From Pseudomonadota bacterium (GTDB lineage Bacteria; Pseudomonadota; Gammaproteobacteria; Burkholderiales; Sulfuricellaceae), in contig JAJYUW010000003.1 of the NCBI GenBank assembly GCA_021792335.1, forward strand, positions 11,721 to 55,866: a DNA stretch of 44,146 nucleotides, read 5' to 3'. The translations under genes and the position numbers were made by a program. Below the pieces are notes generated by a model that was not told where the DNA came from, searched no databases, and saw nothing but the letters and a program-made list of their open reading frames with translations. Below are positions 2,670 through 22,390 of this stretch, piece after piece (positions within the stretch are counted from its first letter, which is position 1; every line of letters begins with the position of its first letter).

Positions 2670-2715
2670 TGGTCGGGGTGAGAGGATTCGAACCTCCGGC
2701 CTCTGCGTCCCGAAC
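2670..2715. repeat. Island attachment-site repeat (left): duplicated 3' half of tRNA-Pro
   Basis: 46 bp (tggtcggggtgagaggattcgaacctccggcctctgcgtcccgaac) identical to 22391-22436. Confidence 0.92.
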
Positions 2716-2821
2716 CCGTTCCAGAGCCTTTTGCCCACCGGTAAAAAAATTAATAATGCATAAAAATCAGGATATTATTATGCAGCAACGCGCAACAACA
2801 TGCAACTAGAAACAGTGTTTT

Positions 2822-2849
2822 TTGGCGCATTTGGCGCACGATTGGCGCA
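2822..2849. promoter_or_regulatory. Putative integrase arm-type sites (left end), three direct TTGGCGCA octamers
   Basis: TTGGCGCA at 2822-2829, 2831-2838 and 2842-2849; the 19-mer ttggcgcacgattggcgca (2831-2849) recurs at 22302-22320. Confidence 0.55.
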
Positions 2850-2942
2850 CAAATAACCTTTCATCTTCACTTTATCTGTCGGTATTTTACGTAACGATGG
2901 GTGATTTGCCTATACTCCTCTTTGGACTTTTCCACAGAGCGC

Positions 2943-3278
2943 ATGACCACCCTCTATCACCCCATCACAAAAGAGAAGGCAGCCGAAATTCTCTCTGTTT
3001 CCAAACGCACTATCGACAACTGGATTTCGGACGGCACCCTACCTGAACCGACGAACATCGGCCGCCGTGTTTATTGGCACCCAGCGACCTTTTTCGGCTG
3101 GCTTGACCAAAGGCTGGGTATTGCGCCAGTAACAAGCGACCCCTTGCCCCAAAGCAACCGTCCTCGCGGCCGCCCACGTACAACCCTGGAGCAGCCGCCC
3201 CAAAGGATGCACTGGTCACGGCAATTTGACCGTTTTCCCACTCATTCTGGTAAGGCGAACTTCCTTACCCGACCCTGA
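2943..3278 (+). CDS. AlpA/MerR-like helix-turn-helix protein (possible excisionase/regulator)
   Basis: MTTLYHPITKEKAAEILSVSKRTIDNWISDGTLPEPTNIGRRVYWHPATFFGWLDQRLG: HTH with AlpA-style wing; near the island left end. Confidence 0.7.
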   Translation: MTTLYHPITKEKAAEILSVSKRTIDNWISDGTLPEPTNIGRRVYWHPATFFGWLDQRLGIAPVTSDPLPQSNRPRGRPRTTLEQPPQRMHWSRQFDRFPTHSGKANFLTRP

Positions 3279-3765
3279 ACGGCCCTCCGGCGGTGGCGCT
3301 ATCAACACCCGTGGTTCTGGGCCGCCGCACCGGTAGCCATGGCGCTGATTACCTTTACTATGGCCATGCCCCCCCGGGAATCCAAGCCCATGATCAAACT
3401 GGCAATGATTTCGCCATGCCCCGTGCTCTTCGCAGGGATCTATTCGTAATGATATGAAAACAATAACAATTCTATCGAGAAGATGTCCCGCCATCTTGGC
3501 GCGGGGAGTTTGACTTAAGACAGATTCTTAGAAATCGGGTGATACAATATAAAGAAAAATGTGTAAGAATTTTTGGAAGATAGACTTCCTGCCGATAAGC
3601 AAGCAAAAATCGCGTGTCCGCACCTGCGAAAGACTGCGAGAGAAAGGTTTGGCGATGGCCTGTGTCTACGCGTCGCACCTCGTTCACGAGCGCAGACATC
3701 TGCAATACACCGCTTTTCCCCATTCGCCACTGGCGAGGTTCTCCAGTAGCCGGTAGAATCGCAGC

Positions 3766-4689
3766 ATGAAAAAAACAAACCCTCAGGTTGGCCATGCCTC
3801 CCACTTTTCAGGACATGAGACCTTTCCGCTCCGGCAAATGTGGCTAAAGAAGGCGTTTGATCAGGCCGGGTCGGATTGGACAGTCCCCAAATCGACCTTC
3901 ACCGACGCCGCCGCGATTTCCGAGTTCGGTGTCGGCAAGAACATGGTGGCGGCTATTCGCCATTGGGCTTTGGCATGCGATGTCCTGCACGACGATTTAC
4001 CCGGCGCCTACTCCGTGTCGCCGACCGCGATTTCGATTTTCACCAACGACGGATTGGATCCCTACTCCGAGAATCCCTCCACCGCTTGGTATGCCCATTG
4101 GTGGCTTGCCGGCCGTGGAAACCGCGCAACGACTTGGTTTTGGCTCTTTAACCACGTCACGATGCCAACGTTTTCACGCGACGAATTGGAAGCACCGTTG
4201 GCCGACTACGCCCGCCGCATAGAGCCCAAACGCAAGCTCTCGGCCTCCACGCTATCGCGTGACATCGAGACCTGCCTTCGCAGCTATGCCCCGCGATTAG
4301 TAGGCGGCTCGCCCGAGGACTTCGCCGAGCCGATGCTCGGGGAGCTCGGTCTCATCAGTGAGGAGCGCAAGGGACATTTCGCATTCCGGCGCGGCCCAAA
4401 GGCGACGCTGCACGACGCCATGTTCGCCTACGCCCTGCTCGACTATTGGGACAGGGCGTCTCCCGGCATCAGCTCAATGGCCTTCGAGACGATTGCCTAC
4501 GGTGAGGGGTCGCCGGGCCGTGTCTTCAAACTCGACGAGGACTCCGTCGCCGAGCGACTGTTCGCGCTCGACGAGCTTACCGGCGGAGTCCTTTCATGGA
4601 CCGACACCGCAGGCCTCAGGCAAGTCCACAGAAAGACATTTGAGAACGAGGGACTATCCTCACTGATGATTAAGAAGTCCTATGGCTGA
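3766..4689 (+). CDS. sspB: DUF4007 protein, SspB-like (PT modification nickase class)
   Basis: HASHFSGHETFPLRQMWLKKAFDQ... DUF4007-like N-terminus; first gene of an operon with an ATPase and a PAPS-reductase-like protein. Confidence 0.78.
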   Translation: MKKTNPQVGHASHFSGHETFPLRQMWLKKAFDQAGSDWTVPKSTFTDAAAISEFGVGKNMVAAIRHWALACDVLHDDLPGAYSVSPTAISIFTNDGLDPYSENPSTAWYAHWWLAGRGNRATTWFWLFNHVTMPTFSRDELEAPLADYARRIEPKRKLSASTLSRDIETCLRSYAPRLVGGSPEDFAEPMLGELGLISEERKGHFAFRRGPKATLHDAMFAYALLDYWDRASPGISSMAFETIAYGEGSPGRVFKLDEDSVAERLFALDELTGGVLSWTDTAGLRQVHRKTFENEGLSSLMIKKSYG

Positions 4690-7600
4690 GAGCCCAAACC
4701 CTATGCTTTCGGACATCGTCCGAATCTCACGCCATTACCAACGCTCGATTCGCATCGATGTCGACTTGGGGCGGCCGGACGCTTTGGAGGGATACATCTG
4801 TCATGGCACTGCCATGGCCGCTCTCGACAGCATGTCCAAGCAACTGCGCGACAGCAATCAACGCGCCTTCACATGGACCGGGCCATTCGGAGGCGGCAAG
4901 TCCTCCTTGGCTGTGGCACTTGCCTGTGCACTTGACCCTGACAAAAAACTGCGGGCCAAAGCACGCCAGATTTTGCCATTGGACCGCCTGCCCGCCTTTG
5001 AGAAGGCCCTACCCACCCGTCGCGGGTGGCTGACAGTTCCGGTGGTTGGCAAGCGGGCCAGTGTCGTTCAGGAGATACACAAGGCGCTGATCAAGGGGCT
5101 CGGATTGGCATCCGATTCACGCAAAGTTTCAGCCTCTTCCGTCATTGCCGAGCTGTGCTCCGCCGCCGAGGAAAACCACCTCGACGGAACTCTGCTAATC
5201 ATCGACGAGATGGGCAAGTTCCTAGAAGCCTCGGCATTGGGCTCAGGCGACGATGTCTATTTCTTCCAGGAGCTTGCGGAGGCTGCTGCGCGGGCCAAGG
5301 GAAAGGTTGTCGTCGTCGGCATCCTCCATCAGTCCTTTGGACAATACGCCGCCCGGCTTGGAATCGACACTCGCGACGACTGGTCGAAGATTCAGGGCCG
5401 CTATTCCGACATTCCGCTTGTCGCGGCAAGCGACGAAGTTGTAGAGCTAATTGGCAGGGCAATCGACGCAGATGAGAAACCACAATGGTCTCGCCAAGCG
5501 TCTGAGGCGATAGCCTCCTCGATAAGAACCCGCCGCCCCGCCGTTGGCGAGGGCTTTGCCCGCGCCCTTGACGTCTGCTGGCCGCTGCACCCTGCTATGG
5601 CAGCTCTGCTGGGCCCCATATCAAAGCGTCAGTTCGGCCAGAACGAACGCAGCACCTTCGGCTTTTTATCGTCGGTCGAGCCTTATGGCTTCCGCTCCTA
5701 TTTGCAATCGACACCGAAGATGGACGCTACTTGGTATAGGCCCTCCGACTATTGGGATTACCTGCGCGCCAACCTTGAGCCCGCGATTCTTTCCTCTCCC
5801 GACGGGCACAGATGGGCTCAGGCTGTGGAGGCTGTGGAGCGCGCTGAGGCCAAAACCGACGACCCGCTTCATGTCGGCCTCATAAAGAACATTGCGGTCA
5901 TCGATCTGTTTAGAAACGGGTCGGGACTAGCGGCTGAGTCGGATGTTCTGCGTGCTATCTCCGTCGGCAAGTCGCAGGAGGAAATCGACGCGGCTCTCGA
6001 GCAGCTCGCCAAGTGGCGGGTAACCCTGTTCAAGAAGCATACTGGATCTTGGTCGGTGTTCGAAGGAAGCGACTTCGACATCGACGCGGCGGTGGCCCAA
6101 GCCCGCGCGACTTTGCCGGGTGTCGATTTCAAGCTGCTGTCGAGTCTGTCCGACCTTTATCCGGTCATAGCCAAACGGCATTATCACGAGACGGGAACCT
6201 TCCGCTGGATGGATGTCGCCTTGTGCCGTGCGGAAGACGCCAAGCATGCTGCCGAGAACTTCAAGCCTCAAAAGGGTGAGTTCGGTTTGTTCCTCTTGGC
6301 TCTGCCAGGGAAGACAAAAAGCCTCAAAGCGGCCCTGCGCGAGTGCGGCGCCCATTCAAGGATGAAGCCTTGGCCTGTCGTCATAGGGGTTCCTCCCAAC
6401 CACGCCCGCATCGATGATCTCGGGGCTGAGCTGCTCTCGCTTCAATCCGTCCAGTCACGGCATGAGCTAGGCGGGGACCCGGTCGCGAGACGTGAGGTCC
6501 AAGCCAGGATATCGGCCGTTCGAGCCAATCTTGAGGAGCAGCTTGCCGCCGCTCTCTCGCGCGCGAGCTGGATGGCCGACGACGTAGAGATGCCTTCTGG
6601 CTCACATCTCTCGCAGCTTGCGTCAAGTTTGGCAGACAAGGTCTACTCTGATGCTCCCGGAATATGGAGCGAGCTGGTCAACCGCGACAGCCTATCAAGC
6701 AACAGCGTCAAGGCCCGCCGCGATCTGCTGTGGCGGATGCTCGCCAACGATGAGGAGGAGAACCTCGGCATAGCCGGGTATCCCGCCGAGCGAGGCCTCT
6801 ATGAGACGTTACTGGGAAGCACGGGCCTCCATCGTCAGGATTCAAATGGGGTCTGGCGGTTCATGCCGCCTGACTCCAAGAACGCTCCCGCGTTTCTGAA
6901 ACTTTGGCAGGCGACCCGGGATTTGTTCTCGGATTCCGAGGCCAGAATCAGTGTCGCCGATATTCACGATTTGTGGTCGGCACCCCCGCTTGGTTTGAGG
7001 ACCGGCGTGACACCGGTTATTCTCACGGCCTTCTTGCTCGCCCACAAGGGGAATGTCGCCGCCTACAAGGACGGGATGTTTGTCCCGCGCCTCACCGACG
7101 CCGACATCGACGAGTATCTCCAAGACGCCCGGCGTTTCTCGTTGCGCTGGGTGACCATAGACGAGGAGAAGACGAAAATCCTCTCAGGCATCTCAAAGAT
7201 TCTCAGCGAGGTCGGAGCCTCCTCCGCCGCAAAGGACCCCTTGGAAGCCGCTCGCGGACTTGTTGCTTTGGTTCTTGGATTGCCCGCATGGGTTCAGAGA
7301 ACAGGTTGCCTGAGCCCTGAAGCCCGTTCTGTACGCGACACGCTGCTCAAAGCAAGCGATCCCCACAAGGTATTGTTCGTCGATTTGGCGGCGGTCTTCG
7401 GCGGTGCCGACGGTAAGGAATATGTGAAAGCTCTGCGCGGTCCGGTTCGGGAACTCGCCGAAGCCTATGATGCGCTGCTGAAAAGAATCGAGTCGAGCAT
7501 GCTCGAAGCTCTGGACGCCCCGGCCGACGACTTGGAACGCTTGCAGGTGCGTGCCGAGGCCGTCGCAGGAGTAACCGGTGATCTGCGCCAAGACGCTTTC

Positions 7601-8014
7601 TCCGCCCGTCTTGCCAAGCACGACGGAGGCAGGGAGAGCGTTGAGGGAATTTTGAGCCTTGCCGCCAACAAGCCGCCACGCGACTGGAACGACCGCGACA
7701 TTGATTCCGCCCTGCTTGAAATCGCCCGCTTCGCCCTGCGCTTCCGCCAGTCCGAGGCGTTGGTCTCCGTGAGGGGACGCAAACCCACAAGCGAGGCCTT
7801 CGCCGTTGTGATCGGGGCCGGCCGCCAGACCCAGACGATTTCGCGTGAGTTCGACGTTCCAGACCGCCATCGCGCGAAGGTAGACAGCCTTGCCGCCGAA
7901 CTTGTTGAAAAGCTAAACGCGCAAGGGTTGAGAACCGACGTTCTGATGGCTGTTCTGGCGAAGACTGGGCTGCGACTGGCTCAGGACGAAACCCGGGAGA
8001 AGCCGCTTGGCTGA
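4682..8014 (+). CDS. sspC: Large P-loop ATPase, SspC-like
   Basis: Walker A TGPFGGGKSS, Walker B GTLLIIDEMGKF; 1110 aa; 8-nt overlap with the upstream gene. Confidence 0.78.
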   Translation: MAESPNPMLSDIVRISRHYQRSIRIDVDLGRPDALEGYICHGTAMAALDSMSKQLRDSNQRAFTWTGPFGGGKSSLAVALACALDPDKKLRAKARQILPLDRLPAFEKALPTRRGWLTVPVVGKRASVVQEIHKALIKGLGLASDSRKVSASSVIAELCSAAEENHLDGTLLIIDEMGKFLEASALGSGDDVYFFQELAEAAARAKGKVVVVGILHQSFGQYAARLGIDTRDDWSKIQGRYSDIPLVAASDEVVELIGRAIDADEKPQWSRQASEAIASSIRTRRPAVGEGFARALDVCWPLHPAMAALLGPISKRQFGQNERSTFGFLSSVEPYGFRSYLQSTPKMDATWYRPSDYWDYLRANLEPAILSSPDGHRWAQAVEAVERAEAKTDDPLHVGLIKNIAVIDLFRNGSGLAAESDVLRAISVGKSQEEIDAALEQLAKWRVTLFKKHTGSWSVFEGSDFDIDAAVAQARATLPGVDFKLLSSLSDLYPVIAKRHYHETGTFRWMDVALCRAEDAKHAAENFKPQKGEFGLFLLALPGKTKSLKAALRECGAHSRMKPWPVVIGVPPNHARIDDLGAELLSLQSVQSRHELGGDPVARREVQARISAVRANLEEQLAAALSRASWMADDVEMPSGSHLSQLASSLADKVYSDAPGIWSELVNRDSLSSNSVKARRDLLWRMLANDEEENLGIAGYPAERGLYETLLGSTGLHRQDSNGVWRFMPPDSKNAPAFLKLWQATRDLFSDSEARISVADIHDLWSAPPLGLRTGVTPVILTAFLLAHKGNVAAYKDGMFVPRLTDADIDEYLQDARRFSLRWVTIDEEKTKILSGISKILSEVGASSAAKDPLEAARGLVALVLGLPAWVQRTGCLSPEARSVRDTLLKASDPHKVLFVDLAAVFGGADGKEYVKALRGPVRELAEAYDALLKRIESSMLEALDAPADDLERLQVRAEAVAGVTGDLRQDAFSARLAKHDGGRESVEGILSLAANKPPRDWNDRDIDSALLEIARFALRFRQSEALVSVRGRKPTSEAFAVVIGAGRQTQTISREFDVPDRHRAKVDSLAAELVEKLNAQGLRTDVLMAVLAKTGLRLAQDETREKPLG

Positions 8015-8846
8015 GAAGCACGTCCTCGGCATTTCCGGTGGTCGCGACAGCGCGGCTCTAGCCGTGTTCATCCGACAAACCAGACCCGAGCTCGATGTCG
8101 ATTACTTCTTCACAGACACAGGCAAGGAGCTTCCGGAGGTCTACGAGTTCCTGGGCCGGTTGGAAGGTTTTCTAGGCAAGCCAATTGCCCGCTTGAACCC
8201 AAGGCGCGGCTTCGATTTCTGGCTCCGCGAATACAACCACTATCTGCCTTCTGCGCAAACCCGCTGGTGCACCCGCCAGTTGAAACTAGCACCGTTTGAG
8301 CAGTGGATTCGCCCGATGCTTGCCTCTGGCGACAAGGTCACGACCTATGTCGCCATTCGCGCCGACGAGGAGTATCGCGAAGGTTACAGCTCAAAGCACG
8401 AGAGGCTGATCGTCAGCCTTCCCTTCCGCGAGGCAGGCATCGACAAGCGCGGCGTGCTGGACATTCTTGACTCATCAGGTGTCGGCCTGCCGAAATACTA
8501 CGACTGGCGTTCACGCAGCGGATGCACATTCTGCTTCTTTCAGCAGAAGATCGAGTGGGTAAGGCTAAGGGAACGCCATCCGGAAGCCTATGAGGAGGCC
8601 AAGGGATACGAGAAAAGCGCCCTTGAGCATGGCTCTCCGTTCACATGGTCGCAGGGCGAACCCTTGAGTGACTTGGAAAAGCCAGAGCGCATCCAGCAAA
8701 TCATTGGGGATTACGAAAAACGCAAGCTGCGTGATCTAAAAAAACGTCCGGTGAATCCGCTACGCCCAATCGAAAACATCGTCGACATCGACGATCTATA
8801 TGGCGAAGACGAAGGCGGCGGCGCCTGCGTGGTTTGCCATAAATGA
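8007..8846 (+). CDS. sspD: PAPS-reductase/DndC-like ATP pyrophosphatase, SspD-like
   Basis: PP-loop ISGGRDSAAL, RWCTRQLK, SGCTFCFFQQK and terminal CVVCHK cysteines; TTG start overlapping sspC. Confidence 0.82.
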   Translation: MAEKHVLGISGGRDSAALAVFIRQTRPELDVDYFFTDTGKELPEVYEFLGRLEGFLGKPIARLNPRRGFDFWLREYNHYLPSAQTRWCTRQLKLAPFEQWIRPMLASGDKVTTYVAIRADEEYREGYSSKHERLIVSLPFREAGIDKRGVLDILDSSGVGLPKYYDWRSRSGCTFCFFQQKIEWVRLRERHPEAYEEAKGYEKSALEHGSPFTWSQGEPLSDLEKPERIQQIIGDYEKRKLRDLKKRPVNPLRPIENIVDIDDLYGEDEGGGACVVCHK

Positions 8847-8886
8847 CCGGAATCCGGCATTCAGATTTTGACGCCCTGATGGCCAC

Positions 8887-8924
8887 CAAGATTCTAATCT
8901 TGTACCTAGAAATGCATTTTGCAT
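8887..8924. promoter_or_regulatory. Candidate operator: two tandem palindromes upstream of the GIY-YIG/DndB-like genes
   Basis: CAAGATT-CT-AATCTTG (8887-8902) and ATGCA-TTT-TGCAT (8912-8924) in the 110-bp gap after sspD. Confidence 0.45.
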
Positions 8925-8956
8925 CTACAATTGCTCCATAATTAGGAGCCACAATA

Positions 8957-9478
8957 TTGGATCTCACGTCACTTATTGACTTCGCCGACGAAGCGGAGGC
9001 CGAAATCGGGAAGTATCGCGTTGAGTTGACCCTTTCACCAAGCAAGCTGGGCTTCAGCCCGTATTGCGTGCCTAATCTCACTTGGCAAAGCATTAAATAC
9101 GGAGAAGCTGAACTACATCTCGTTCCAGACGACAAACGAGGCATATATGCGTTCGCCATTTGCGAACCAAGCGCAGTGCTTCCACCACATGGTTACATTC
9201 TTTACATTGGGATAGCGGGAAGAAACTCTACGCGGTCTCTGCGTGATCGTTACAAAGATTATCTCAATGCAAAGAAGGTAATGAAGCGCGCTCGCATCGC
9301 TTACATGATTGGAACATGGCATAAAGTCCTGCGCTTCTTTTTCGTTCCCGTTGATGACGCGATGACGTCAGCCGATTTAGAGACACTAGAGAAGCAGCTT
9401 AATACGGCCCTCCTTCCTCCATTCTCCCAAGGCGACCTCGAAGCAGAAACTAAGATCAACCGAAGGGCATTCAAATGA
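8957..9478 (+). CDS. GIY-YIG nuclease-domain protein
   Basis: Literal motifs: ...DDKRGIYAFAICEPSAVLPPHGYILYIGIAGRNSTRSLRDRYKDYL...LEKQLNTALLPPF. TTG start preceded by AGGAG. Confidence 0.78.
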   Translation: MDLTSLIDFADEAEAEIGKYRVELTLSPSKLGFSPYCVPNLTWQSIKYGEAELHLVPDDKRGIYAFAICEPSAVLPPHGYILYIGIAGRNSTRSLRDRYKDYLNAKKVMKRARIAYMIGTWHKVLRFFFVPVDDAMTSADLETLEKQLNTALLPPFSQGDLEAETKINRRAFK

Positions 9479-10731
9479 CAAACACTGCCGGAAAACTTAC
9501 TCTGCCCGCGCTTCGCGGAATCATGGGCGATTGGGTTTATTACTCATGCCTGATGAATCTTGTAGAGCTGGGCAAGCGGGTTCACTATGCCCAAGATATC
9601 CATAAGAGCCAGCAACTGTCAGACTTGATTCAAAGGCAGTTGAAAAAAAGTAGAAGCGTCCAGATTGCCAGTTATTTGAAGACCCAACCAGAGCGCTTTT
9701 TCAATTCTCTTGTTATCGCGACATATGGCGGTCAGCCCAACTGGCGCGCGATATCCAGTGTCAGGTCCAAATCTGCAAATGATGATCTTGGCGCGCTAGA
9801 ACCAGAAACGCTAGAGTCAGTCGGATTTCTAACGCTGCGTGGAGATGAAAATCTCTTCGCGCTTGATGGGCAACACAGACTTGCTGGAATTAAGAAAGCT
9901 ATCTCGGATGGCTTGGACCAGGATCCGGTTGACGAGGTATCAGTGATATTCGTCGCGTACAAAGCCAATTCAAAGGGGCTTGAGCGAACTAGGCGGCTAT
10001 TCACAACGCTAAATAAGACAGCAAGGCCAGTTTCGAAAGGCGACATTATCGCGTTAGACGAAGATGACGTTATGGCGATCTGCGTAAGGCGGCTTATTGA
10101 AGAGACTGAACTCTTTTCTGGCAACAAAATAGCTTTCACAGCGAGCAACAACATGCCCTCTACCAATACGGAAAGCTTAACGACTATCGGTAATCTCTAC
10201 GACGTCTTGACGATTCTATTTACCGAAGTGCAGTCGGATTTGCGGAAACAAAGGAGCGAACTCCTGAAGGCTCGGCCAGAAGATGAAGACCTAGACAAGT
10301 ATTTCAAATTCGCACACAACTACTTTGTTCTCATGCGCAAGAGCTTCGCTGAAATCGACGAATTCTTTGCGGCGGACAACCCTGAGGTTGTTGTCAAGAA
10401 ATATCGTGGAAGTCATGGAGGAAAAGCGATCTTCAGGCCACTCGGACTCGAAATGTATACTCGCATTATTGCGCGACTGACGAAAGAGATGTCACGTGGT
10501 GAAGCGGTGAAGGTTGTAGCCAAACTTCCTCGAGATCTGACTGTTGCTCCATTTCTCGGCCTGATGTGGGATTCAAATAACAACACTATTAGCAATGCTC
10601 ATAAGGTCACATTGCGTGAAGTTCTCTTGTATATGACGGGCTACTCGAAGTATTCCGACGCCAATCTGCTTGGGCGGTATCGCAAGGAACTTGGCGACGA
10701 AAAAGCCGTATTGCCTAAAAAGGTAATTTAG
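9475..10731 (+). CDS. DGQHR-domain protein, DndB-like
   Basis: ENLFALDGQHRLAGIKKAI...RTRRLFTTLNKTARPVSKGDIIALDEDD; ATGA overlap with the GIY-YIG gene. Confidence 0.75.
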   Translation: MTNTAGKLTLPALRGIMGDWVYYSCLMNLVELGKRVHYAQDIHKSQQLSDLIQRQLKKSRSVQIASYLKTQPERFFNSLVIATYGGQPNWRAISSVRSKSANDDLGALEPETLESVGFLTLRGDENLFALDGQHRLAGIKKAISDGLDQDPVDEVSVIFVAYKANSKGLERTRRLFTTLNKTARPVSKGDIIALDEDDVMAICVRRLIEETELFSGNKIAFTASNNMPSTNTESLTTIGNLYDVLTILFTEVQSDLRKQRSELLKARPEDEDLDKYFKFAHNYFVLMRKSFAEIDEFFAADNPEVVVKKYRGSHGGKAIFRPLGLEMYTRIIARLTKEMSRGEAVKVVAKLPRDLTVAPFLGLMWDSNNNTISNAHKVTLREVLLYMTGYSKYSDANLLGRYRKELGDEKAVLPKKVI

Positions 10732-10767
10732 AAGAGGTCATGAACCTCTAAGTAGCGAAACTGCCCC

Positions 10768-12204
10768 CTAAATTTCCCGTTCCTTTTGAACAACAAGATC
10801 AGAAAAACGGGCAAGCAAATCGAGATTAAGTCGAAGCCTTGACTCAATCTGCGCGCGATCCCACCAGTCGGTCCAAGTCCCGCGACGAGCTAGAGCGACA
10901 AGGTGTTCTACAAGCGAATTAGCAGGCTGGGGGAACGCTACAAGGAAATAGCCTTCGGCGTCGTGGCGCTCGATGGTGTCCCGAATGTCGACCACTTTGG
11001 CCTTGCCCACTGAGGGCTGGTGTGCCTTTACCTGCACGACGATGCTCTTCAGTATCGCAGGTTCAGGGATACCATTCGATGCGGAGCCATCCAACCCGTG
11101 CCCAGAAGAAATTAGCCAACGCGCAATAAAGTCCCGCCCCCCATCGCGTTCACGAGTAGGGCCAGCTTGCCGAACCCAAGCCACGCCTTTTTCTCGCTCT
11201 AGGAGCGCGTAAACAAGGTCTTCAAAGCGTCCGCCGTCGATTCTTTCTGTCCACTCAAATGCATAGTCGACCGAGAATACGGCATTCTCAGCAGATCGTC
11301 GCACAAGAAACTTTGTCCGTTCCGTTTCGAATGAGCGGATGCCGCAATCTGCCGCAATAGCGACGATAGATTGCATCCCGACAAAGACGCAATGAGATTC
11401 AAGCGGTATGAGCGCTATGGCCTTATCAAGAGGGGCTGATCCCGCTCCTTTCCATGGCAGCGAGGATTCTGGCTCGATACTTCGCAGCAACCGCAGACCG
11501 CTAGAAATAGTCCGATGCGCGACAGCGTTCTTCAGCCCGCTTCCGACGATTGACACTCTTGATCGTCCACTCACACATACTGGATCGTAAGCTGCAAGTG
11601 CCACGCGGAACGCGGCAGCTCTTGCCGGAGGAAGAATTGCAACCGTAATGCCATTGGCGAGCGATTTGGCGTAATACCAGTCGGGACACTCACGAATCCC
11701 TGCCATGTCATCAAAGTCAGTAAAACTCCCACTGGAATTCAGAGCATCAACAAGCTCCTTGGCACCGTTAGTCCACCTAGCCTGTGGATACATGATGTCG
11801 CCCCACCCTACGACGTCATCTAGGGCGTGGAAAGCGAACGCCGTATGCGCAAGAATTTTCGCCTTAGGTGGATTTGGATCACTTAAATCGCCAACCTGAT
11901 CAAAGATCAGCCATCTAGCGTAGATCTCACCCGGTATAGGGACAAACCCAGCCTCATCCACCAGCCTCGTTGATGCCGCGCCATTGGCCCTTAAAACACA
12001 CGCCCAAAACAACGATAGCAGATCGTGTGCGTCGGTGCGCCCTCCGCAGCCGTCCATCTGGTATGAATTCGTTCGCAAATATCCAAATGTTATCGAACCC
12101 TGATCAGTCTGTTGCTCTGCCACTTTTAGCGGATAGTGGTCCTCCTGCGCACACGGCTGCTGCATCACATAAGTATGCAGGCGGGAGAACATTTTTTCCT
12201 TCAT
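10768..12204 (-). CDS. Restriction-endonuclease-like protein (C-terminal Mrr/PD-(D/E)XK-type domain)
   Basis: C-terminal ERIDGGRFEDLVYALLEREKGVAWVRQAGPTRERDGGRDFIARW...SIVVQVKAHQ (E...GGRD...QVK). ATG overlaps the sspH stop (ATGA); an alternative start at 12192 has a better SD (AAGGA). Confidence 0.68.
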   Translation of the reverse strand: MKEKMFSRLHTYVMQQPCAQEDHYPLKVAEQQTDQGSITFGYLRTNSYQMDGCGGRTDAHDLLSLFWACVLRANGAASTRLVDEAGFVPIPGEIYARWLIFDQVGDLSDPNPPKAKILAHTAFAFHALDDVVGWGDIMYPQARWTNGAKELVDALNSSGSFTDFDDMAGIRECPDWYYAKSLANGITVAILPPARAAAFRVALAAYDPVCVSGRSRVSIVGSGLKNAVAHRTISSGLRLLRSIEPESSLPWKGAGSAPLDKAIALIPLESHCVFVGMQSIVAIAADCGIRSFETERTKFLVRRSAENAVFSVDYAFEWTERIDGGRFEDLVYALLEREKGVAWVRQAGPTRERDGGRDFIARWLISSGHGLDGSASNGIPEPAILKSIVVQVKAHQPSVGKAKVVDIRDTIERHDAEGYFLVAFPQPANSLVEHLVALARRGTWTDWWDRAQIESRLRLNLDLLARFSDLVVQKEREI

Positions 12205-15200
12205 CCGGGGGGCAAAACTTCTGGCGCGCCATCTGAACGAATCGCCTCTACGGCTTGGGCGATGTCGTCGTCGCTGAGGAATGGAGCTTGGGCGAACACC
12301 AGTCCCTGCTCGCCATTCAACTTTGCGGCCAGGTGTCCCTTGCCTAGTAATAGCTCAGCTCCCGGTCGGTCGAGCGCGATCTTCGAAGTCGCCTCGCTAG
12401 CAACTTTCAGAATCAGACGGTTGCCAAGGTTCTCCCGCAGCTGCATCGGCATCACGTCCTTGTCCGGCCGCTGTGCTGCGAAAATCAGGTGGATGCCGGC
12501 GGCCCGCGCCTTGACGCCAAGCCTCTGGACAGCGGAGCTGACTGCGTTCTTGTAGGCGTCGTCGAACATCCAGTCAGCGAATTCGTCGTGTATTAGAAAT
12601 ACCATCGGCAGCCGGTTTTCAGGAGCTGATTTCGCGTTGTATGTCGGCAAGTCGCGAGCCCGCGTCTCAGAGAAGATCCGATACCTGTTCTCCATTTCCT
12701 CGACAAGGCTTGCCAGGATCTCGGCCGAGCGTTCCTTAGTCGTCACAATCTTCTCGCGCATGTGCGGAAGGTCTTCTAAGGCCGAGTAGTCGACACCCAT
12801 CTTGGGATCGATGAGTACCATCTGGGCGAGCTCCTTTGGATTGGTGGCCGCGATATCGAGAATCATGGCCTGGATGAGGACCGACTTTCCGCTGCCTGTC
12901 GTTCCGGCCACAAGCGAATGCGGGTCGTGGGCGGCCAATCCGCCGAATTCTCCGCCGAGGTTGAGATAGAGCAACGCTCCATTGATTTCCTGCACACCAA
13001 GCAAGATGGAGGTATTGATGCCGGCGGCGTTTCTGTTCAGGGTCCGCCTTGCCCACAAGCCCCAAAGCGAGACAGACTGCCTCTTGGAGCCGGCGATGGT
13101 GATGACGATCTCTCCCGGCTTTGGCTGGACGGTGACCAGGTTGATGGCATGCGTGGTCAATAGCTGCATGCGTTTGGCCTCGACGTCCTCGACGCGCAGG
13201 CGATCCGAACCTGCGAGCCTGACCAGACATCCGTTCGGCGTGAGCCGAGTCGCAAGTACCGCCGCTTGAAGCCCGTATCCGTTGAGGGCGGCTTTGAGCT
13301 TGCGCGTTGTCTCCTGCGCCCACTCCTCGCGCTCGTCGGTGGCGGCCGACAGTCCCGCCGTCTTTGACGCGACAAGGGTATTGAGGCTTGCGCCGAATGC
13401 GGTGGCCTCCGGCTGTGCATGCGCGCTGATTGGCGCTTCCAGTTCGGTGGCCGGCGCCTCGGAAGTCGGGGTGGCAGGCGGCATCACTTCCGTCGGCGCG
13501 ACATCCGCGGCAAGCGCGGGGCTTGTTGCAAGAAGCTCGATCATCGCACCCCAGGCGACACGCGGTGCAGGAAGTTGGGGCGTGGCGGAAAGCCAAGGCT
13601 GCGCGGGTCCGAGCTTTGAGCGGATTGTCGTCGGATCTTCCTTGCGGGCGTAGGACTCGACCAAAAGCCTGAGCTCGTTGCGCTCGAAAACCTCCTGCCA
13701 TGCTTGGATGCCGTCGGTGTCGTCGACCAGGTGCTGCTCGGAGGCCGAAGGCCCGGCGGGGTCTGTGGAATGGACGAAGACATGCGAATAGCCGCGCAGG
13801 GAGATTCCGGCTTCCCCGTCGCGCAGCTTCGCCCGCGCCCGCTCCAAGAGGCCCGAGCAACCGGGTGGGATGTCGGCATCGACGAGCAGGTCGGCAAGCC
13901 GCGAGAGCCAAACGTCGCGGTCGAGCCGACCGGGATCGCCGAACAAGGCTGCCCGAAAAGTAGAGAGCGTCGCCATCAACTGCGCCTTCGAGGAACGCCG
14001 GGCCTCAGCTGCTCCGTTGGCCGCGACATATTTTGACTCGATGACGGCCACATGTAGTATCGGCCCCTCCTCACCTTCCTCAACGCAAAGGCCCAGGATA
14101 TCGGCGATGCGGCTTTCCTTTTGCGCGAGCCAGTCTGCATAGTCGTCCAGGAGGAAGAAGACGCTGAAAGCCGCCCGTTTTCTGGAGCCTGATATGACCT
14201 TGAACTCCTCTTCGAGGAGATGACGGCTCATGACAAGCCCAATCATCTCCCCGGCCGAAATGCCGCGCTTTGCGGCCCGCAGAACGATGTCACCAGACAC
14301 CGACAGGGCGTCTTTCTTCATCCGGTCGGCCAGGGCCGAGAGTTCTTCGCCGGACAGTGGAAGGCCCAACTCGCCGAGCCTGCGCCTGGCGAGAACCCCA
14401 AGCAGCCGAAGTTCGGATGTGGAGCTGACGATGGTGTTGCGGCCGTTGGTGGAGGTCCTGCGGTAGCGGACTACCGTGACTCCGTTTGCTTGAAGTTGGC
14501 GCTTGTCCAAAAGCTCGTCGTAGGTGGCGACCCATTCGGCGAGGGCGTGCGCGTCGTCGAGGGTGGCCTTCAATGTCTCGTTTTGAAGCGAGATGCGCCG
14601 CGCCGGCAACAATTGCGTTCCGGCCGTGGCGTCGGTCTGCCGCACCACCGACGCGACAGCTCCGACATAGGCCCAGCCTGAGGCTGTCTGACGCGGGCAG
14701 GTCAGGAAGGTCGTGGATTTGAGCTCGTTCTCGCCTGACACGCTACGGTATGACCAACGTGACGGAGCATGCTCCAGAGTGGGCCGTTCGTTGGTCCAGT
14801 CGACTGGGATCCATTCCACCGCTGCGGTTCTCGAAACGACATCGTGGAGGAAGGCGACATCGAAGGCCCGGAATCCATCGCTTGCCCGAGGAGGCGTTGA
14901 AGAAGGCGGAGCAACCGAGATGCGAAGTTTCGACATGAAGTTCTGGCTCGTCTCGCTCACCACCGGCAAGTCCGGGTCATCGCCGGTCTTGGTGACAAGC
15001 TCAGCGTAGACGCGCCTGAGCTTTGCAGGGTCGCGGTGGCGCACAGAGACATTGCACTGGAAATCAGTCTCAGTCTGCATGCCCGACAGCTCGCGCACGA
15101 CCGCCAGCGGCAGCTCTGCAGCGTCTGCGTTGTAGAGAAGCACGCTCAGATTCGACGCCTCGTGTGGCTGCAATCCGATATACCGCTCCATCAACTCGCG

Positions 15201-17591
15201 CGCTTGCTTAGCAGCGGCGGCCGGATCGACATCGGTGAGGGAGTCGTCGGAGCCGCGCACTGGCCGCTCAAGCAGGCTGTATCCGTTGACGGTGCTGCTC
15301 TCGCAGACGAGGATCGGAGTTCCGCCCTTGTTGGCCGCCGCTATCTCCGGATAATACGGATGGGCGAGCTCCTCCGAAAACTCACGGAAGAAGATCCCCC
15401 TGTCGCCGAAGAGCACTTTCTTCCCGTTGAGGATGTGGGTCACAAGACCCGCGACGCGGCGGGTTTTCACCGCGAGGGCCTTCATGCGCTCGGGATGCCA
15501 GGGCGGGATGATCACCGACGGCTGCTCGCCTGAGACTTTCACCGTTCCGATGGACAGCACCTCGGCGACAAGCTCCGAGCGGCATATGTCACCGCGCGCG
15601 TGGATCGCCAGCGCGCGAAGCAGCGCAGCGAAGGAGTCGGCCTGCCGCAACACCGCCTCGCCATGGAGTCCCGTTTTTATGAAGTCTTCCAAGGCAAGGA
15701 TGTAGTCTTCCTCGAAGGTTTCCCATGAGGCCCGAAGCTCGGCGCGCTGCTCCTCGGAAATGCGTCCCTTGACGGCGAGATCGTCTATCCTGCGCTTAAT
15801 GTCGGCCCGCATGCTTTTCAGCTGCTTCGACTGCGGAACCAGTGAACCGGCGTCGTGCGAATAGGTGGCCTCCAAAGTGGCGGTGTCCAAAAGGGACACG
15901 CTCTGCACCCCACCCTTCTTGCTGACAAGGCGTCTTGGAACCTCTGTACAGCCCACGGAACCCTTCTCTTGGAGACGCCGCATGTCGTCGATCAGCGAAA
16001 GCCCTATGGAGTCAGGACGGTATAGCCACAGCAGCTGCGTCTTCTCCAGGATGGTCTCGTCTGCGCCCTTCTTTTCAACAAGGGAGACTTCAAACTTTAT
16101 CTGGACGGAATTTTTCGCAAGCGAGGTGCATGGCTTGAACTTGTCCTTGCGGATTTCCTTCTCGCGGACCAAAAAAGCGGGATGATCGAACAGTGGGTCG
16201 GGCAGGTTTCCCGCCCCCATCCGTTCGACGCGCCATTCGACGCGTCCGTTCATAAGCTCTTTGAGGCCGCGATACATCGCCGAGAAGAACGCCCCGACGT
16301 CCTGGTTGTGGCGCTCTCTCCAAACGGTGCGGCCTTTGGTGACGGTGAAACGCAGTACACGCTCGCCCTGCGGCTCCGCTGCCCCTGCCACAAGGTGGTG
16401 AGCGACGCTGGCAAAGCCGTCGAGGAAATCATGGCATTCGATGGGCTTGCCGAATACCACCTTTTCCCAACGTGCGTGCAGCTTCGTGTTTTTCTCTATG
16501 TAGCGGCGGTGGAGCTCGAAGAACACCTCATCATCATCGTTCCAGTCGGATCGCTTTTCCCGGGCGCGCAATCCTTCAAGGTGTTTGCGCCATTCGGCGT
16601 CGAGCACATCTGGGTCGTCGCAGTCGTGGTCGAAAAAATAGATGGTTGCGTCGGCTAGGCCCTGCTGGCGCTCACGGGGCTTGTCGAAGATGAGGTGGAC
16701 TCCGTCCTTTTCCCACTCAAGGGCCATGACCTCAGCGGAGGTCAGCTCGTCGCCTGGCTGCGCGTTGATGAACGCGAGAAGGACTTCCCTTGCGTGATCC
16801 TGTATAGCTTCGGCGTTCTCGTCGAGGCGCTGGCGCAGCTCCTCTGGATCAAGCGGCTGGCCGTTAGGCCGCATCTTGGAGAGAAGCGGGAAGCGGTTCG
16901 CGAAGAGTTTCTCGAACACCTTGCGCCAAGGCGCGACGGCCGCCCCATAGGTCTTGGAGCTTGAGAAAAACGATGTGTCGCGGGGCAGCCCGACATAAGG
17001 CAAAGCCCAGCCGATGGCGTCGCGAATCGGATGTCCATGGGCCGTGGTGGCCTCCCCGGCCAAAGCACAAAACTCTCCGAGCTGGTTGAGCGAGAGCTCC
17101 GAGGCGCCCATCAGGCCCCTGAGGGCGGCGCGAAAGACAGCCCGGTCCTCAGGCGTCGGGGCGATGCCGGCAACATGGCAGGTCGCCTCCACCCAGGACT
17201 CCTCGTGCGACCTGAACTCCTTGGCGCCCAATGCGGTCACATGCCCCAGCGTGTCCGCCAGATTGTGCTCGTTGCCGTTGGCGGTGAGCAGCGCCTCCTT
17301 GGTGGTGCCAGAGTTGCGAACCTCCCCTGCATTCATCTGTGTGAGGGCCTCAGGCGGAAGCCCCTCGTCCTTGACCAAGGGTTCTGGAATCTTCAAATCC
17401 ACCCGCGCGGCAAGGTCCGGGTTGTCGAGGATCTCGCGGACTATCGACGCTATCTGGGCAGGTGCAAGCTTGTCGAGACGAAACATGGCAGCGGAGTCAG
17501 GCAGCGAGCCGTCGCTTTGCCGTGAGTCGGCGAGGCGGCGCTGAAGGATGTCCGCGCCGACGCGGCCGATGATTCTATCTGTCCGCATCAT
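12201..17591 (-). CDS. sspH: FtsK/HerA-type ATPase, DptH/SspH-class restriction protein
   Basis: C-terminal LVAGTTGSGKSVLIQAMILD, VLIDPKMGVDY, MVFLIHDEFADWM, LIFAAQRP. Start at 17591 (ATGA overlap with sspG, upstream GGAGAGG) preferred to the track start at 17633. Confidence 0.75.
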   Translation of the reverse strand: MMRTDRIIGRVGADILQRRLADSRQSDGSLPDSAAMFRLDKLAPAQIASIVREILDNPDLAARVDLKIPEPLVKDEGLPPEALTQMNAGEVRNSGTTKEALLTANGNEHNLADTLGHVTALGAKEFRSHEESWVEATCHVAGIAPTPEDRAVFRAALRGLMGASELSLNQLGEFCALAGEATTAHGHPIRDAIGWALPYVGLPRDTSFFSSSKTYGAAVAPWRKVFEKLFANRFPLLSKMRPNGQPLDPEELRQRLDENAEAIQDHAREVLLAFINAQPGDELTSAEVMALEWEKDGVHLIFDKPRERQQGLADATIYFFDHDCDDPDVLDAEWRKHLEGLRAREKRSDWNDDDEVFFELHRRYIEKNTKLHARWEKVVFGKPIECHDFLDGFASVAHHLVAGAAEPQGERVLRFTVTKGRTVWRERHNQDVGAFFSAMYRGLKELMNGRVEWRVERMGAGNLPDPLFDHPAFLVREKEIRKDKFKPCTSLAKNSVQIKFEVSLVEKKGADETILEKTQLLWLYRPDSIGLSLIDDMRRLQEKGSVGCTEVPRRLVSKKGGVQSVSLLDTATLEATYSHDAGSLVPQSKQLKSMRADIKRRIDDLAVKGRISEEQRAELRASWETFEEDYILALEDFIKTGLHGEAVLRQADSFAALLRALAIHARGDICRSELVAEVLSIGTVKVSGEQPSVIIPPWHPERMKALAVKTRRVAGLVTHILNGKKVLFGDRGIFFREFSEELAHPYYPEIAAANKGGTPILVCESSTVNGYSLLERPVRGSDDSLTDVDPAAAAKQARELMERYIGLQPHEASNLSVLLYNADAAELPLAVVRELSGMQTETDFQCNVSVRHRDPAKLRRVYAELVTKTGDDPDLPVVSETSQNFMSKLRISVAPPSSTPPRASDGFRAFDVAFLHDVVSRTAAVEWIPVDWTNERPTLEHAPSRWSYRSVSGENELKSTTFLTCPRQTASGWAYVGAVASVVRQTDATAGTQLLPARRISLQNETLKATLDDAHALAEWVATYDELLDKRQLQANGVTVVRYRRTSTNGRNTIVSSTSELRLLGVLARRRLGELGLPLSGEELSALADRMKKDALSVSGDIVLRAAKRGISAGEMIGLVMSRHLLEEEFKVISGSRKRAAFSVFFLLDDYADWLAQKESRIADILGLCVEEGEEGPILHVAVIESKYVAANGAAEARRSSKAQLMATLSTFRAALFGDPGRLDRDVWLSRLADLLVDADIPPGCSGLLERARAKLRDGEAGISLRGYSHVFVHSTDPAGPSASEQHLVDDTDGIQAWQEVFERNELRLLVESYARKEDPTTIRSKLGPAQPWLSATPQLPAPRVAWGAMIELLATSPALAADVAPTEVMPPATPTSEAPATELEAPISAHAQPEATAFGASLNTLVASKTAGLSAATDEREEWAQETTRKLKAALNGYGLQAAVLATRLTPNGCLVRLAGSDRLRVEDVEAKRMQLLTTHAINLVTVQPKPGEIVITIAGSKRQSVSLWGLWARRTLNRNAAGINTSILLGVQEINGALLYLNLGGEFGGLAAHDPHSLVAGTTGSGKSVLIQAMILDIAATNPKELAQMVLIDPKMGVDYSALEDLPHMREKIVTTKERSAEILASLVEEMENRYRIFSETRARDLPTYNAKSAPENRLPMVFLIHDEFADWMFDDAYKNAVSSAVQRLGVKARAAGIHLIFAAQRPDKDVMPMQLRENLGNRLILKVASEATSKIALDRPGAELLLGKGHLAAKLNGEQGLVFAQAPFLSDDDIAQAVEAIRSDGAPEVLPPG

Positions 17592-19108
17592 ACCTCTCCC
17601 TTGGAGACGAACGGATTCTCGACAAAGGAGCACGAATCTGAGAGCCTTCTGACCAATCCAAGCCCGACAAGGCGGGTTTCAAGGTTTCCGCGGTTGTCGC
17701 TGAGAGCGTCCTGGTCTACTGTCTTGGCGCGCACCAAGTGGGCTCCTTCGGCATCGCCGATGACAAGGCCGTAGCGGGCACGGACCTCGTGGAGAAACTC
17801 GTCAAACTGCATGCGGTCCTCGACGATGGACACGACCAATGTCTTCAACAGGCGGTCGTTCGGCGCGTATCGGTTGCGCCTCGACAGTCGCCGGGAGCTC
17901 AGGCCTATTGAGCGCGACCAGGCTGCATGGATCTTCCCGAAATGGCCTTCGTGGCGGGTTTCCGCCTTGTCCGCAAGCATCCGGACAAGCTCGTCTCCTG
18001 TCATTTTCTCGTAGTCGGTCTCATCGTCGGTGTCCACAGGAGGCCACTGAAACCAAGCCCTCATCAAACAGAGGCGCTCGCCGTCAGGATCGTCGGTCTC
18101 GGCAGCTTTTGCCCATTCGTCGCAGAGCCTGATTTGCTCGACCGCAGCGCGCACGGCGCGAAGCGACAATGATTGGTTTGCCTGGTAGGAGTCGCCTGAG
18201 AGCGCCCTGACTTTGGTGCGCTCTCGGGAGACGATTTCGCACACGAGCTCCACTGGCTCAGCATCCCCGACTTGCGTCTTCGCTCGTTCCAAGAAATACA
18301 GGAGCATATTGAGGCCGGCGCTGGCGATCAGATGCTCCAGCGCGTCATATATGGGCATGTCCCGCGAGAGGATCGCAAGCCAGTCGTCACAGAGCCTGTC
18401 AAAGCGGGGGTTGGATGCCTGGGGGAGATATCCGACATCCTTGGCTTCGGAAAATTGCGGCTTTCCTTGCAAAGTCCTGGCAAGGCGGTTCATCGGGGCA
18501 GACACGTTAAAGAGCCGCCCGATAAGCTTTTCTCCAAGCTCCGATCCGCGCTCTGCCCGGCAAAGCATCAAATACAAGAGCTCTCCGGTGCGCCCAAAAA
18601 ACAGCCTGTCGTTGGAGGCTTTTCCACCGACGACCCTCAAATCCTCGTATAGGGCGTCCGGTCCGAAGGGGAAGACGAACTTTGAGCTCCAACGTTTGTT
18701 GCTGCGCGCTTCGAAGGCCGAAGAACGCAGCAGTTCGATGGCCTTGGCGAAATCGTCGAAGGAGAGAAACGCCCGGCGCAGGTATTCCATGTCGGCGTCG
18801 TCGATCTCGGTGGCGTCCAAGGCGAAACGGGTCTTCCACTCCCTCCACTTGTCCTCATCGGGCAAAGACTTCTCGCGAATCGACTCCACATATGGGTTGT
18901 TGAACAACAGCCCCCGCAGCTTCATCTGCCGCTGCGGCCGATAGCTCACCTGCTCGTTGGGCGCCGCCTTCAGCGGGTTGTCGGCGTTAGAACCGAGCAC
19001 CCCCAGAAATTCCAGAACCGTGAGATGTGGAAGCTGGGCGTCGTGGAGACGATGGCCCCAGATGTGCTCGTCGACCGCGTAGTCGACTCCGTCAATCTTT
19101 GGTCTCAC
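17588..19108 (-). CDS. sspG: DptG/SspG-class protein of the PT restriction module
   Basis: 506-aa ORF between F-like and H-like ATPases with 4-nt overlaps on both sides; assigned mainly by position. Confidence 0.6.
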   Translation of the reverse strand: MRPKIDGVDYAVDEHIWGHRLHDAQLPHLTVLEFLGVLGSNADNPLKAAPNEQVSYRPQRQMKLRGLLFNNPYVESIREKSLPDEDKWREWKTRFALDATEIDDADMEYLRRAFLSFDDFAKAIELLRSSAFEARSNKRWSSKFVFPFGPDALYEDLRVVGGKASNDRLFFGRTGELLYLMLCRAERGSELGEKLIGRLFNVSAPMNRLARTLQGKPQFSEAKDVGYLPQASNPRFDRLCDDWLAILSRDMPIYDALEHLIASAGLNMLLYFLERAKTQVGDAEPVELVCEIVSRERTKVRALSGDSYQANQSLSLRAVRAAVEQIRLCDEWAKAAETDDPDGERLCLMRAWFQWPPVDTDDETDYEKMTGDELVRMLADKAETRHEGHFGKIHAAWSRSIGLSSRRLSRRNRYAPNDRLLKTLVVSIVEDRMQFDEFLHEVRARYGLVIGDAEGAHLVRAKTVDQDALSDNRGNLETRLVGLGLVRRLSDSCSFVENPFVSKGEV

Positions 19109-21000
19109 GAGCCTGTCCTCACGGTGATGGGCCGCGAGAATCCGTGGCCGTTTTGCTCTATCTCGATGAAGTTGAGTGTCAGGGCTCCATTATCCTCACT
19201 GGGCTCCTCGTCGTCATGTGAGAGTCGCTCAATACGCAGCAGCTCGGCCTTGCGAAGCAGCTTCGCTTTGAAGGCGAGCATGTCCTCCAAGCACTCGTTC
19301 GAAAAGCTTCCCGGCAGCGCGCCTTCAGCGACCCGGCAGAGAAACTCGAAACGCACAGGGGAAAGGTTGAATGTCGTCGAACCGCCCTCTCCCTGCGCAA
19401 GCGACACGCCCAATGCCGGTCTCTCGGTCAGGGCGTCGATCTTGACGGACATGCCAACACCACCGACGCGACGTGCAGGAGCCTCGGTGTCGCAAAGGAC
19501 ACTGATCCTCGACTGGGTGAAGCCGCCGGAGCTCGCGACGAAAACCCTGTCGTTGTTCTCGATGAGAAGGCCGGTCATCACGCGATTGAGCCCCCGCACC
19601 ATGCGAGCCCGCACTGTCTCGTCGACTGGCTTGCGCTCAGCGAGCGCGGCGGACATGTTCAGGTAGTCGCCAGCGAAACGGAACGCCGTCATGTCCCAGA
19701 ACGGATAGTCGCGCTCGTCATCGGGCAAGGTAAAAAAAAGCCTGCGTCTTTGGGTCTCAAGGCGCGCGAGGAAATCTGCCGCGCCTCCGTCGATTCGGGC
19801 GATCTCTTCGCCTTCAAGATATCGCAGCTGCGCTGCCAGATAGGATGGGGTAGCGCCGTATGCGGAATCTGCTTTGACCAGCCTGTTGAATGCATCCAAA
19901 AGGTTGCCGTCGTCGGCGCCGTATACGAGCAAGCCGTCGGCCCCGTTGGATGTTTCCTCGCCGATGCCGAAGGTGGCAAGGGCCCGGAACACCTGATGGT
20001 CGTTCGCGCGCTTGCGCGGCAGGTTGACTCCGAAAACATTGTCGTAGATGGAACCGTTTTCAGTCTTTCCGGCTTCCTGGATCTTGGCCACATCGGCGCA
20101 AGACAAAAGACCCTCCCGTGCGTCCTTGTGGCCGAGGATCATGTTCGCCGTCAGAGCGAGCAGGTCACGCACGGGAAGGTGCCAGCCGTTGAGCCTTGCG
20201 ACTTCGACGAGATCGCCAAGGCGTCTCACGAAGCGTCCCCTATCAGTTGCGCCAAGCAGCCGTTCCCTGTTCTCGTATATTGGACACAGGCGCTCAGGAG
20301 AGCGCAGAGAACATTTGGCGCAGTTCTCCCATTCCGCGTGTCCCGCGACTGCAGAGAGAACCTCGTCGAGCGAATGCCTGCGTGCGGTCCGGCTCAAATC
20401 GAATATAGCAAGTCGCTCAGGCGCTTTGCTGGCAAGCAGGAAGGCGTCCTGTAAAGGTTTTCTGAGAGGATGGACCCGCCCCTGCCGCAGTCCGAGGTTC
20501 CGAAGGCGCTCCAAGATTTGGCCATGGTTGGCGGCCACGACCAGGAACTGCTTGTTCTCCTCGCCAAGGACTGAGCGTTCTAGTAATTCCAGAACTTCGT
20601 CGCTTTTGCGCTCGTCGCTGACTGCGCTGAGGTCTTTCACAAACACGGCGATGCGCCCGTCGGCCAGGGCCAGCGTTTTCACGGGAGCGGAGATAAGCCA
20701 TTCACAGGGGTCGCCACCAAGTGCTCCCCACAGGCTGCGGCAGTGGTAGGTCTTTCCATCCCCGGCGGTTCCCGCAATGAGAAGCGAACCGTGTGCACCC
20801 GATTCCACCCTTAGCCGCATTTCTTCAAGCTGTGGGCTATCAAGGGTTATCGGCTGAACCTTTGCCCGGCCAATGGCTCCGACGACATATTCGTCAAAAA
20901 GTGTGAGGTCGTTTGGCGTGGGGCCGTATGAGCGCAGAAAGCGCACCCACGCTCCGGCAGGGACGGCACCAGCATCTTGGCTGGAAGGAGTAGCACTCAT
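19105..21000 (-). CDS. sspF: DptF/SspF-class P-loop protein of the PT restriction module
   Basis: SLLIAGTAGDGKTYHCRSLWGALGG Walker A; conserved CAKCSLRSPERLCPIYENRERL. Start MSATPSSQ at 21000 preferred; track start is 21078. Confidence 0.68.
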   Translation of the reverse strand: MSATPSSQDAGAVPAGAWVRFLRSYGPTPNDLTLFDEYVVGAIGRAKVQPITLDSPQLEEMRLRVESGAHGSLLIAGTAGDGKTYHCRSLWGALGGDPCEWLISAPVKTLALADGRIAVFVKDLSAVSDERKSDEVLELLERSVLGEENKQFLVVAANHGQILERLRNLGLRQGRVHPLRKPLQDAFLLASKAPERLAIFDLSRTARRHSLDEVLSAVAGHAEWENCAKCSLRSPERLCPIYENRERLLGATDRGRFVRRLGDLVEVARLNGWHLPVRDLLALTANMILGHKDAREGLLSCADVAKIQEAGKTENGSIYDNVFGVNLPRKRANDHQVFRALATFGIGEETSNGADGLLVYGADDGNLLDAFNRLVKADSAYGATPSYLAAQLRYLEGEEIARIDGGAADFLARLETQRRRLFFTLPDDERDYPFWDMTAFRFAGDYLNMSAALAERKPVDETVRARMVRGLNRVMTGLLIENNDRVFVASSGGFTQSRISVLCDTEAPARRVGGVGMSVKIDALTERPALGVSLAQGEGGSTTFNLSPVRFEFLCRVAEGALPGSFSNECLEDMLAFKAKLLRKAELLRIERLSHDDEEPSEDNGALTLNFIEIEQNGHGFSRPITVRTGS

Positions 21001-21101
21001 CGGCAACATCCAATTCTTGTTATGAAGGAGGAAGCCTCCCCGGCTTGCTCGACTGTCCCTCCGTCCGCACGCCGTCAAACATTTGGCTGAGACAATGGCA
21101 T

Positions 21102-21107
21102 ATTATA
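21102..21107 (-). promoter_or_regulatory. Candidate -10 (TATAAT on the minus strand) for the sspFGH-endonuclease operon
   Basis: Perfect TATAAT ~100 bp upstream of the preferred sspF start; no strong -35 at 17 bp. Confidence 0.35.
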
Positions 21108-21335
21108 GCGCGATTTGGCAAAGATTTACTCTGGCATTGACATTAGGGAGACCGGCATGAAAAATCGAACTTTCGTACCCATTGCTTGAGCCGCAAATTC
21201 TATTGAGACGGCTATTTAGAGCTCTTTTACTGCTATTTTAAGGCATCCGAAGGCTCGTGAGATGAGCCACTGCATTTTGAATTTGGAGGATTCAGCCTTT
21301 GCCTGTTGCCGGAGTTGGCTGCGGATGGGAAGCGC

Positions 21336-22343: not shown

Positions 22344-22390
22344 CGCCCCGCAATGCAAATCCTAACAGGCTGATTCGTATTGCTTAATTA

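Follow-up and report, generated by a model that had tools for sequence, protein, structure and literature searches.

A DGQHR protein in an Ssp-type phosphorothioate island is distinct from DndB and forms one half of a constant pair with a GIY-YIG-type partner

The DGQHR protein encoded in the Ssp-type island of the 44,146-nucleotide stretch of DNA analysed here (the window) is not DndB, which it had initially been annotated as resembling, but one half of a pair whose other half is a GIY-YIG-type protein encoded directly upstream. We suggest that the two genes, denoted giy-dgqhr, encode a two-subunit nuclease/NTPase effector linked to phosphorothioate (PT) modification, which would be gated by PT and act on invading or unmodified DNA. 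We put the probability of this reading at roughly 45%.

Results and discussion

The host island

The features of the island are as follows.
2670-2715, left boundary of the island, a 46-bp repeat of the 3' end of tRNA-Pro
3730-3746, CTGG-N9-CCAG palindrome just upstream of sspB, conserved in Ssp loci whether or not they carry the pair
3766-4689, forward strand, SspB (DUF4007; Pfam, PADLOC)
4682-8014, forward strand, SspC ATPase (PADLOC)
8007-8846, forward strand, SspD, PAPS-reductase-like sulfurtransferase (family models, PADLOC)
8957-9478, forward strand, GIY-YIG-type nuclease-like partner (P0002), 173 aa, TTG start, stop overlapping the DGQHR start (ATGA)
9475-10731, forward strand, DGQHR (ParB/Srx-type) protein (P0001), 418 aa, ATG start, stop included
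10768-12204, reverse strand, Mrr-type restriction endonuclease, between the pair and sspH
12201-17633, reverse strand, SspH, FtsK/HerA-like translocase (Pfam, PADLOC)
17588-19108, reverse strand, SspG (PADLOC)
19105-21078, reverse strand, SspF (PADLOC)
22391-22467, reverse strand, tRNA-Pro gene, whose segment 22391-22436 forms the corresponding repeat at the right boundary

PADLOC identified SspB, SspC, SspD, SspF, SspG and SspH, the combination of sspBCD with a restriction module by which an Ssp system is recognized; no sspA is present among the annotated proteins of the window. With sspBCD on the forward strand and sspFGH on the reverse strand as its neighbours, the dgqhr gene does lie inside an Ssp-type locus, as first annotated. 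The island spans 2670-22436 and is bounded by the 46-bp tRNA-Pro duplication, and 11 other genomes of the same genus lack a close match to the DGQHR protein. We therefore regard the locus as a tRNA-associated genomic island. A further 19-bp repeat is found within it (2831-2849 and 22302-22320), and an excisionase-like HTH protein is encoded at 2901-3278, with no integrase among the annotated proteins. The slot between dgqhr and sspH varies, being occupied by the Mrr-type endonuclease in the window and by other genes in two related loci (L006, at 11622; L012, at 8949).

The DGQHR protein is not DndB

The open reading frame at 9475-10731 is intact and both peptides quoted in the initial annotation are present in it. 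Its product scores 115 bits against the DGQHR domain model TIGR03187 (cut-off 58.85) and 89.8 bits against Pfam PF14072 (cut-off 29.1), so the resemblance to DGQHR proteins has not arisen by chance and the original assignment to the DndB/DGQHR superfamily is confirmed. The motifs QR (53-54), DGQHR (131-135) and F176xxxN180 are kept, and Q53, DGQHR, F176 and N180 are invariant in the family; QR, DGQHR and FxxxN are the three motifs listed for the DGQHR/GmrS domain in the GmrSD study (PMC4619093). A Foldseek comparison of the structure model with PDB structures returned no match. This is the sole DGQHR gene found in the source genome, the assembly of which is 75% complete.

The more specific identification as DndB does not survive. 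The protein reaches 57 bits against the DndB equivalog model TIGR03233 (cut-off 328) and 30 bits against the DGQHR_dnd_1 model TIGR04172 (cut-off 450). In a tree of 59 sequences, comprising true DndBs, DpdBs, DGQHR_dnd_1 and other DGQHR proteins, 29 pair proteins lie on one side of a branch with support of 100/99 and no DndB is found among them, which answers in the negative the question, raised at annotation, of whether the protein branches with true DndB. Since the tree is rooted at its midpoint, we do not claim that this clade is the sister of DndB.

The pair and a true DndB occur together in at least five loci, namely those of Bordetella genomosp. 7 (L017), Silicimonas (L027), the sampled genome G051 (L081), Salmonella Infantis SARB27 (L100) and Rhizobium NXC14 (L103). 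Against TIGR03233 the pair-type relatives score 45-63 bits and the DndBs in the same loci 443-533 bits. The PT island of L081 holds three DGQHR families together: DndB, DGQHR_dnd_1 (454 bits) and the GIY-YIG-paired type. Because the pair type and DndB coexist in one locus, we consider the former to be a paralogue working alongside DndB rather than a DndB that has moved into Ssp. The connection between the Dnd and Ssp lineages proposed in the initial annotation thus holds insofar as the family also occurs in Dnd loci, but not as the recruitment of a Dnd regulator. The protein is not encoded with dndCDE; it follows sspD and the GIY-YIG-type gene, its constant partner, and the dnd loci that carry the pair have a dndB of their own.

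The pair type can be compared with known DGQHR families. DndB (TIGR03233; PF14072) and the pair type are both found in PT islands and share the DGQHR domain with 20 common invariant positions, including Q53, DGQHR and FxxxN. They differ in length (about 418 aa for the pair type, 365 for DndB), at 12 positions with fixed residue differences, and in their partner, which is a GIY-YIG-type protein and not dndCDE. The DndB cysteine column (C29 in Salmonella; PMC4507180) holds Met, Val or Ile in the pair family, and Cys in eight and Val in three of 11 DndBs. DGQHR_dnd_1 (TIGR04172, 'DNA phosphorothioation-associated DGQHR protein 1') is likewise an additional, non-DndB DGQHR protein of PT islands, but it lies on the opposite side of the tree from the protein of the window, and L081 encodes it side by side with DndB and a pair-type protein. 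DpdB (NF041060) likewise carries DGQ(Q/H)R and serves a DNA-modification system, but its clade is separate (starred on the tree) and the modification is a different one. Another genome of the genus to which the window belongs has a complete dndBCDE (L157, 8381-16651); next to it, together with a weak GIY-YIG match, lies a gene at 8616-10316 for a divergent DGQHR protein that resembles the pair type and scores 94 bits against its profile.

The partner is a GIY-YIG-type protein

Residue conservation and profile comparison give good support for placing the upstream partner in the GIY-YIG superfamily. An alignment of 23 homologues shows the pattern G-x-Y / Y-x-G / R / Y / E with no variation; Y64, Y83, R98, Y102 and E145 are invariant in all 23 sequences, and Y64, Y83, R98 and E145 correspond to the active-site residues of GIY-YIG enzymes. 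The family profile aligned with the UvrC GIY-YIG domain in hhalign with a probability of 71.8 (E = 3.5e-5; reversed control 0.1). Eight of the 23 family members matched Pfam GIY-YIG, with a best E value of 3.8e-6; the window's own protein (8957-9478) gave no Pfam match, GIY-YIG included. The C-terminal Asn of GIY-YIG domains is not conserved in the partner family.

The structure models of the two proteins are of moderate quality (pLDDT 77 and 72). Foldseek found nothing significant in the PDB for the partner model, the GIY-YIG enzyme R.Eco29KI recurring at E values of 0.57 and above (TM 0.36-0.39), and a profile search of PDB sequences gave no significant match. Fold claims for the pair therefore rest on motifs and profile comparison, and the GIY-YIG fold of the partner is putative.

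Distribution of the pair

A scan of species-representative genomes with the DGQHR protein yielded 27 loci, in Pseudomonadota, Poribacteria, Chloroflexota, Acidobacteriota and Rhodothermota; five further loci came from plasmids, a Salmonella ICE and one sampled genome. A GIY-YIG-type gene lies directly upstream of dgqhr in 32 of the 33 loci (window included), the exception being a MAG (L020), and the two reading frames overlap, stop codon of giy over start codon of dgqhr, in each of the 14 Ssp loci inspected.

PT modification genes (ssp or dnd) occur within the retrieved stretch in 26 of the 33 pair loci: ssp in the 17 loci of one subclade and in L102, dnd in the rest. Of the seven loci with no such genes nearby, six were searched genome-wide, and sspD or dndC is present elsewhere in four of them and was not detected in two. 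Counting whole genomes, PT modification genes accompany the pair in 30 of 32 tested; the two genomes in which they were not detected, both from Poribacteria, may be incomplete. In the Poribacteria loci L018-L024 and L028 the pair sits amid apparently metabolic genes, mostly distant from PT modification genes that are found elsewhere in several of these genomes. The Ssp-type pairs form a single subclade of 17 (also starred), and the modification type switches only twice on the tree. This suggests that the giy-dgqhr cassette may be adapted to the kind of PT system it accompanies.

The pair is accessory and is present in a minority of Ssp loci. Among 399 sampled genomes of the phylum, 11 have sspD, and only the window's own genome also has the pair; it is carried by 4 of 70 plasmid records with SspB. 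No relatives were found in the viral contigs or E. coli genomes searched. Its restriction neighbours are of three kinds: SspFGH (the window, L005, L006, L012 and L102), a helicase with a HATPase and a third gene (L008, L015, L016 and L101, and partly L003), and a helicase with a DndD-like ATPase (L002, L004, L011, L013 and L014). Since three different modules accompany it, the pair is not part of any single one, and the idea that it belongs to one restriction module was rejected. An extra gene encoding 239-260 aa (family 14) is found between sspC and sspD in L003 (6541-7323) and L008 (7840-8559), with relatives near other PT loci (L006, L026, L079 and L084). In a search of open-access main texts, neither the GIY-YIG/DGQHR pair nor its presence in Ssp loci was seen to be described.

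A putative two-subunit effector

Where genes for a putative DGQHR NTPase and a GIY-YIG-type nuclease overlap in PT islands, the simplest reading is a two-subunit effector that works by the logic of SspE, DndI and GmrSD. The constant pairing, the linkage to PT modification genes, the retained signatures and the occurrence beside several restriction modules also speak for it. The DGQHR protein would be the NTPase/sensor half of an accessory cassette and would form a complex with the nuclease encoded upstream. The PT state of the DNA would gate NTP hydrolysis, and this would switch the nuclease onto invading or unmodified DNA; the pair may thereby cleave DNA and serve against phages. The cassette would be a counterpart of SspE and DndI that is divided over two genes, comparable to the two-protein GmrS/GmrD, and would use GIY-YIG in place of HNH.

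These systems couple a ParB/Srx-type DGQ(Q/H)R NTPase to a nuclease (PMC11662687, PMC9646914, PMC4619093), and they are linked to PT or another modification, as the pair is. The arginine of the DGQQR motif of DndI is required for ATPase activity and phage resistance (PMC11662687), and in GmrSD a DGQQR NTPase is combined with a nuclease, either in one protein or in two (PMC4619093). The pair differs from SspE and DndI in having DGQHR instead of DUF262, a GIY-YIG-type protein instead of an HNH nickase, and two separate overlapping genes instead of a fused protein; its PT sensing is putative. The DUF262 NTPase fused to an HNH (DUF1524-type) domain that characterizes SspE and DndI gave no Pfam match in either protein of the pair. 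More tentatively, we speculate that the pair could read both Ssp (single-strand) and Dnd (double-strand) marks, with subclades tuned to each, and could be added to any PT module, whichever restriction operon is its neighbour.

Roles in modification or as a standalone effector

The position of the pair within the sspBCD gene string makes a role in modification the main rival. Here the GIY-YIG protein would nick or edit target sites and the DGQHR NTPase would set the frequency of sulfur insertion or repair. In 14 Ssp loci the pair follows sspD at a distance of 18-110 bp and shares its strand, and in Ssp loci it is joined to sspBCD and not to the restriction operon. The single Ssp-type subclade, with its two changes of modification type, fits such a role, as do the correlated distances of the pair and SspBCD (r = 0.58-0.70). 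However, SspB, SspC and SspD correlate among themselves at 0.93-0.98, above their correlation with the pair, and the pair is detached from sspD in L009, L014 and L102. Modification does not need the pair, since it is missing from most Ssp loci, that is, from the ten other genomes with sspD among the 399 and from 66 of the 70 plasmid records with SspB. We consider this role rather unlikely.

Less likely still is that the pair acts on its own, for suicide or as a back-up, and resides in PT defence islands without reading PT. A suicide back-up role has been proposed for URI (GIY-YIG) nucleases that border Dnd neighbourhoods (Rakesh et al., 2024; PMC10853773). Like the pair, they represent a GIY-YIG-type gene tied to PT modification; a constant DGQHR partner and an occurrence in Ssp loci, in contrast, are not described in the main text of that paper. 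The orphan-looking pairs in Poribacteria would also suit such an effector, and nucleotides or DNA may be what ParB/Srx proteins act on. Nevertheless, the pair is strongly linked to PT modification genes of both types, some of the Poribacteria carry sspD or dndC elsewhere, and no toxin-antitoxin-like arrangement is seen.

The sspB palindrome and transcriptional control

The initial annotation suggested the recruitment of a regulator; on that reading the protein would act as DndB does, repressing transcription of the ssp operon in an ATP-dependent way. The protein belongs to the same superfamily as DndB, and the promoter of Salmonella dndB contains two palindromes, TACG-N10-CGTA, to which DndB binds (PMC4507180). 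This box is not enriched in the window, where seven one-mismatch matches compare with 6.3 expected. The gap between sspD and giy (8847-8956; 110 bp in the window and 18-99 bp elsewhere) contains no convincing common palindrome across 14 loci, and promoter/terminator scans and searches for pair-specific palindromes upstream of giy gave nothing convincing above chance.

A different element, CTGG-N9-CCAG, is found near the sspB start in all 13 pair loci compared, against a maximum of 3 in shuffled sequences. It occurs in the window and near sspB in L002, L003, L005, L006, L008, L010-L016 and L101. In eight of the 13 pair loci a second copy lies 56-60 bp from the first, with TTGAC(C/T) and TA-rich boxes between them, and this frequent placement of one or two copies around -35/-10-like boxes in pair-carrying sspB promoters would be consistent with a repressor. 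However, the exact element is also present near the sspB start in 14 of 15 pair-less loci with a close SspB (L069, L070, L072, L141-L144 and L146-L152, but not L071). As for the genomes behind L069, L070 and L072, G249 and G235 are without a DGQHR/PF14072 gene and G171 has a sub-threshold 16-bit match. We accordingly assign the element to the sspBCD core and not to the DGQHR protein, and reject it as the operator of the latter. Both arms of the palindrome contain 5'-CCA-3', and the Ssp modification motif is reported as C-PS-CA (PMC9646914); sspB may be under autoregulation that depends on SspB or on whether this site carries PT. Given also the separate clade and the TIGR03233 score, the DndB already present in Dnd-type pair loci, and a constant GIY-YIG partner that a transcriptional role leaves unexplained, a repressor is the most improbable of the functions considered.

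Implications

Several pair proteins have been labelled automatically as 'DNA sulfur modification protein DndB'. Nothing supports the transcriptional function that this label implies, and reclassification would correct it. In one survey, 2,211 of 2,678 sspBCD loci had neither SspE nor SspFGH (PMC8092258), so more PT-linked effectors are to be expected. If the effector reading is true, giy-dgqhr would add a restriction effector of two subunits, so far undescribed, to those of PT islands, and as a compact nuclease/NTPase cassette common to Ssp and Dnd islands it offers a testable candidate.
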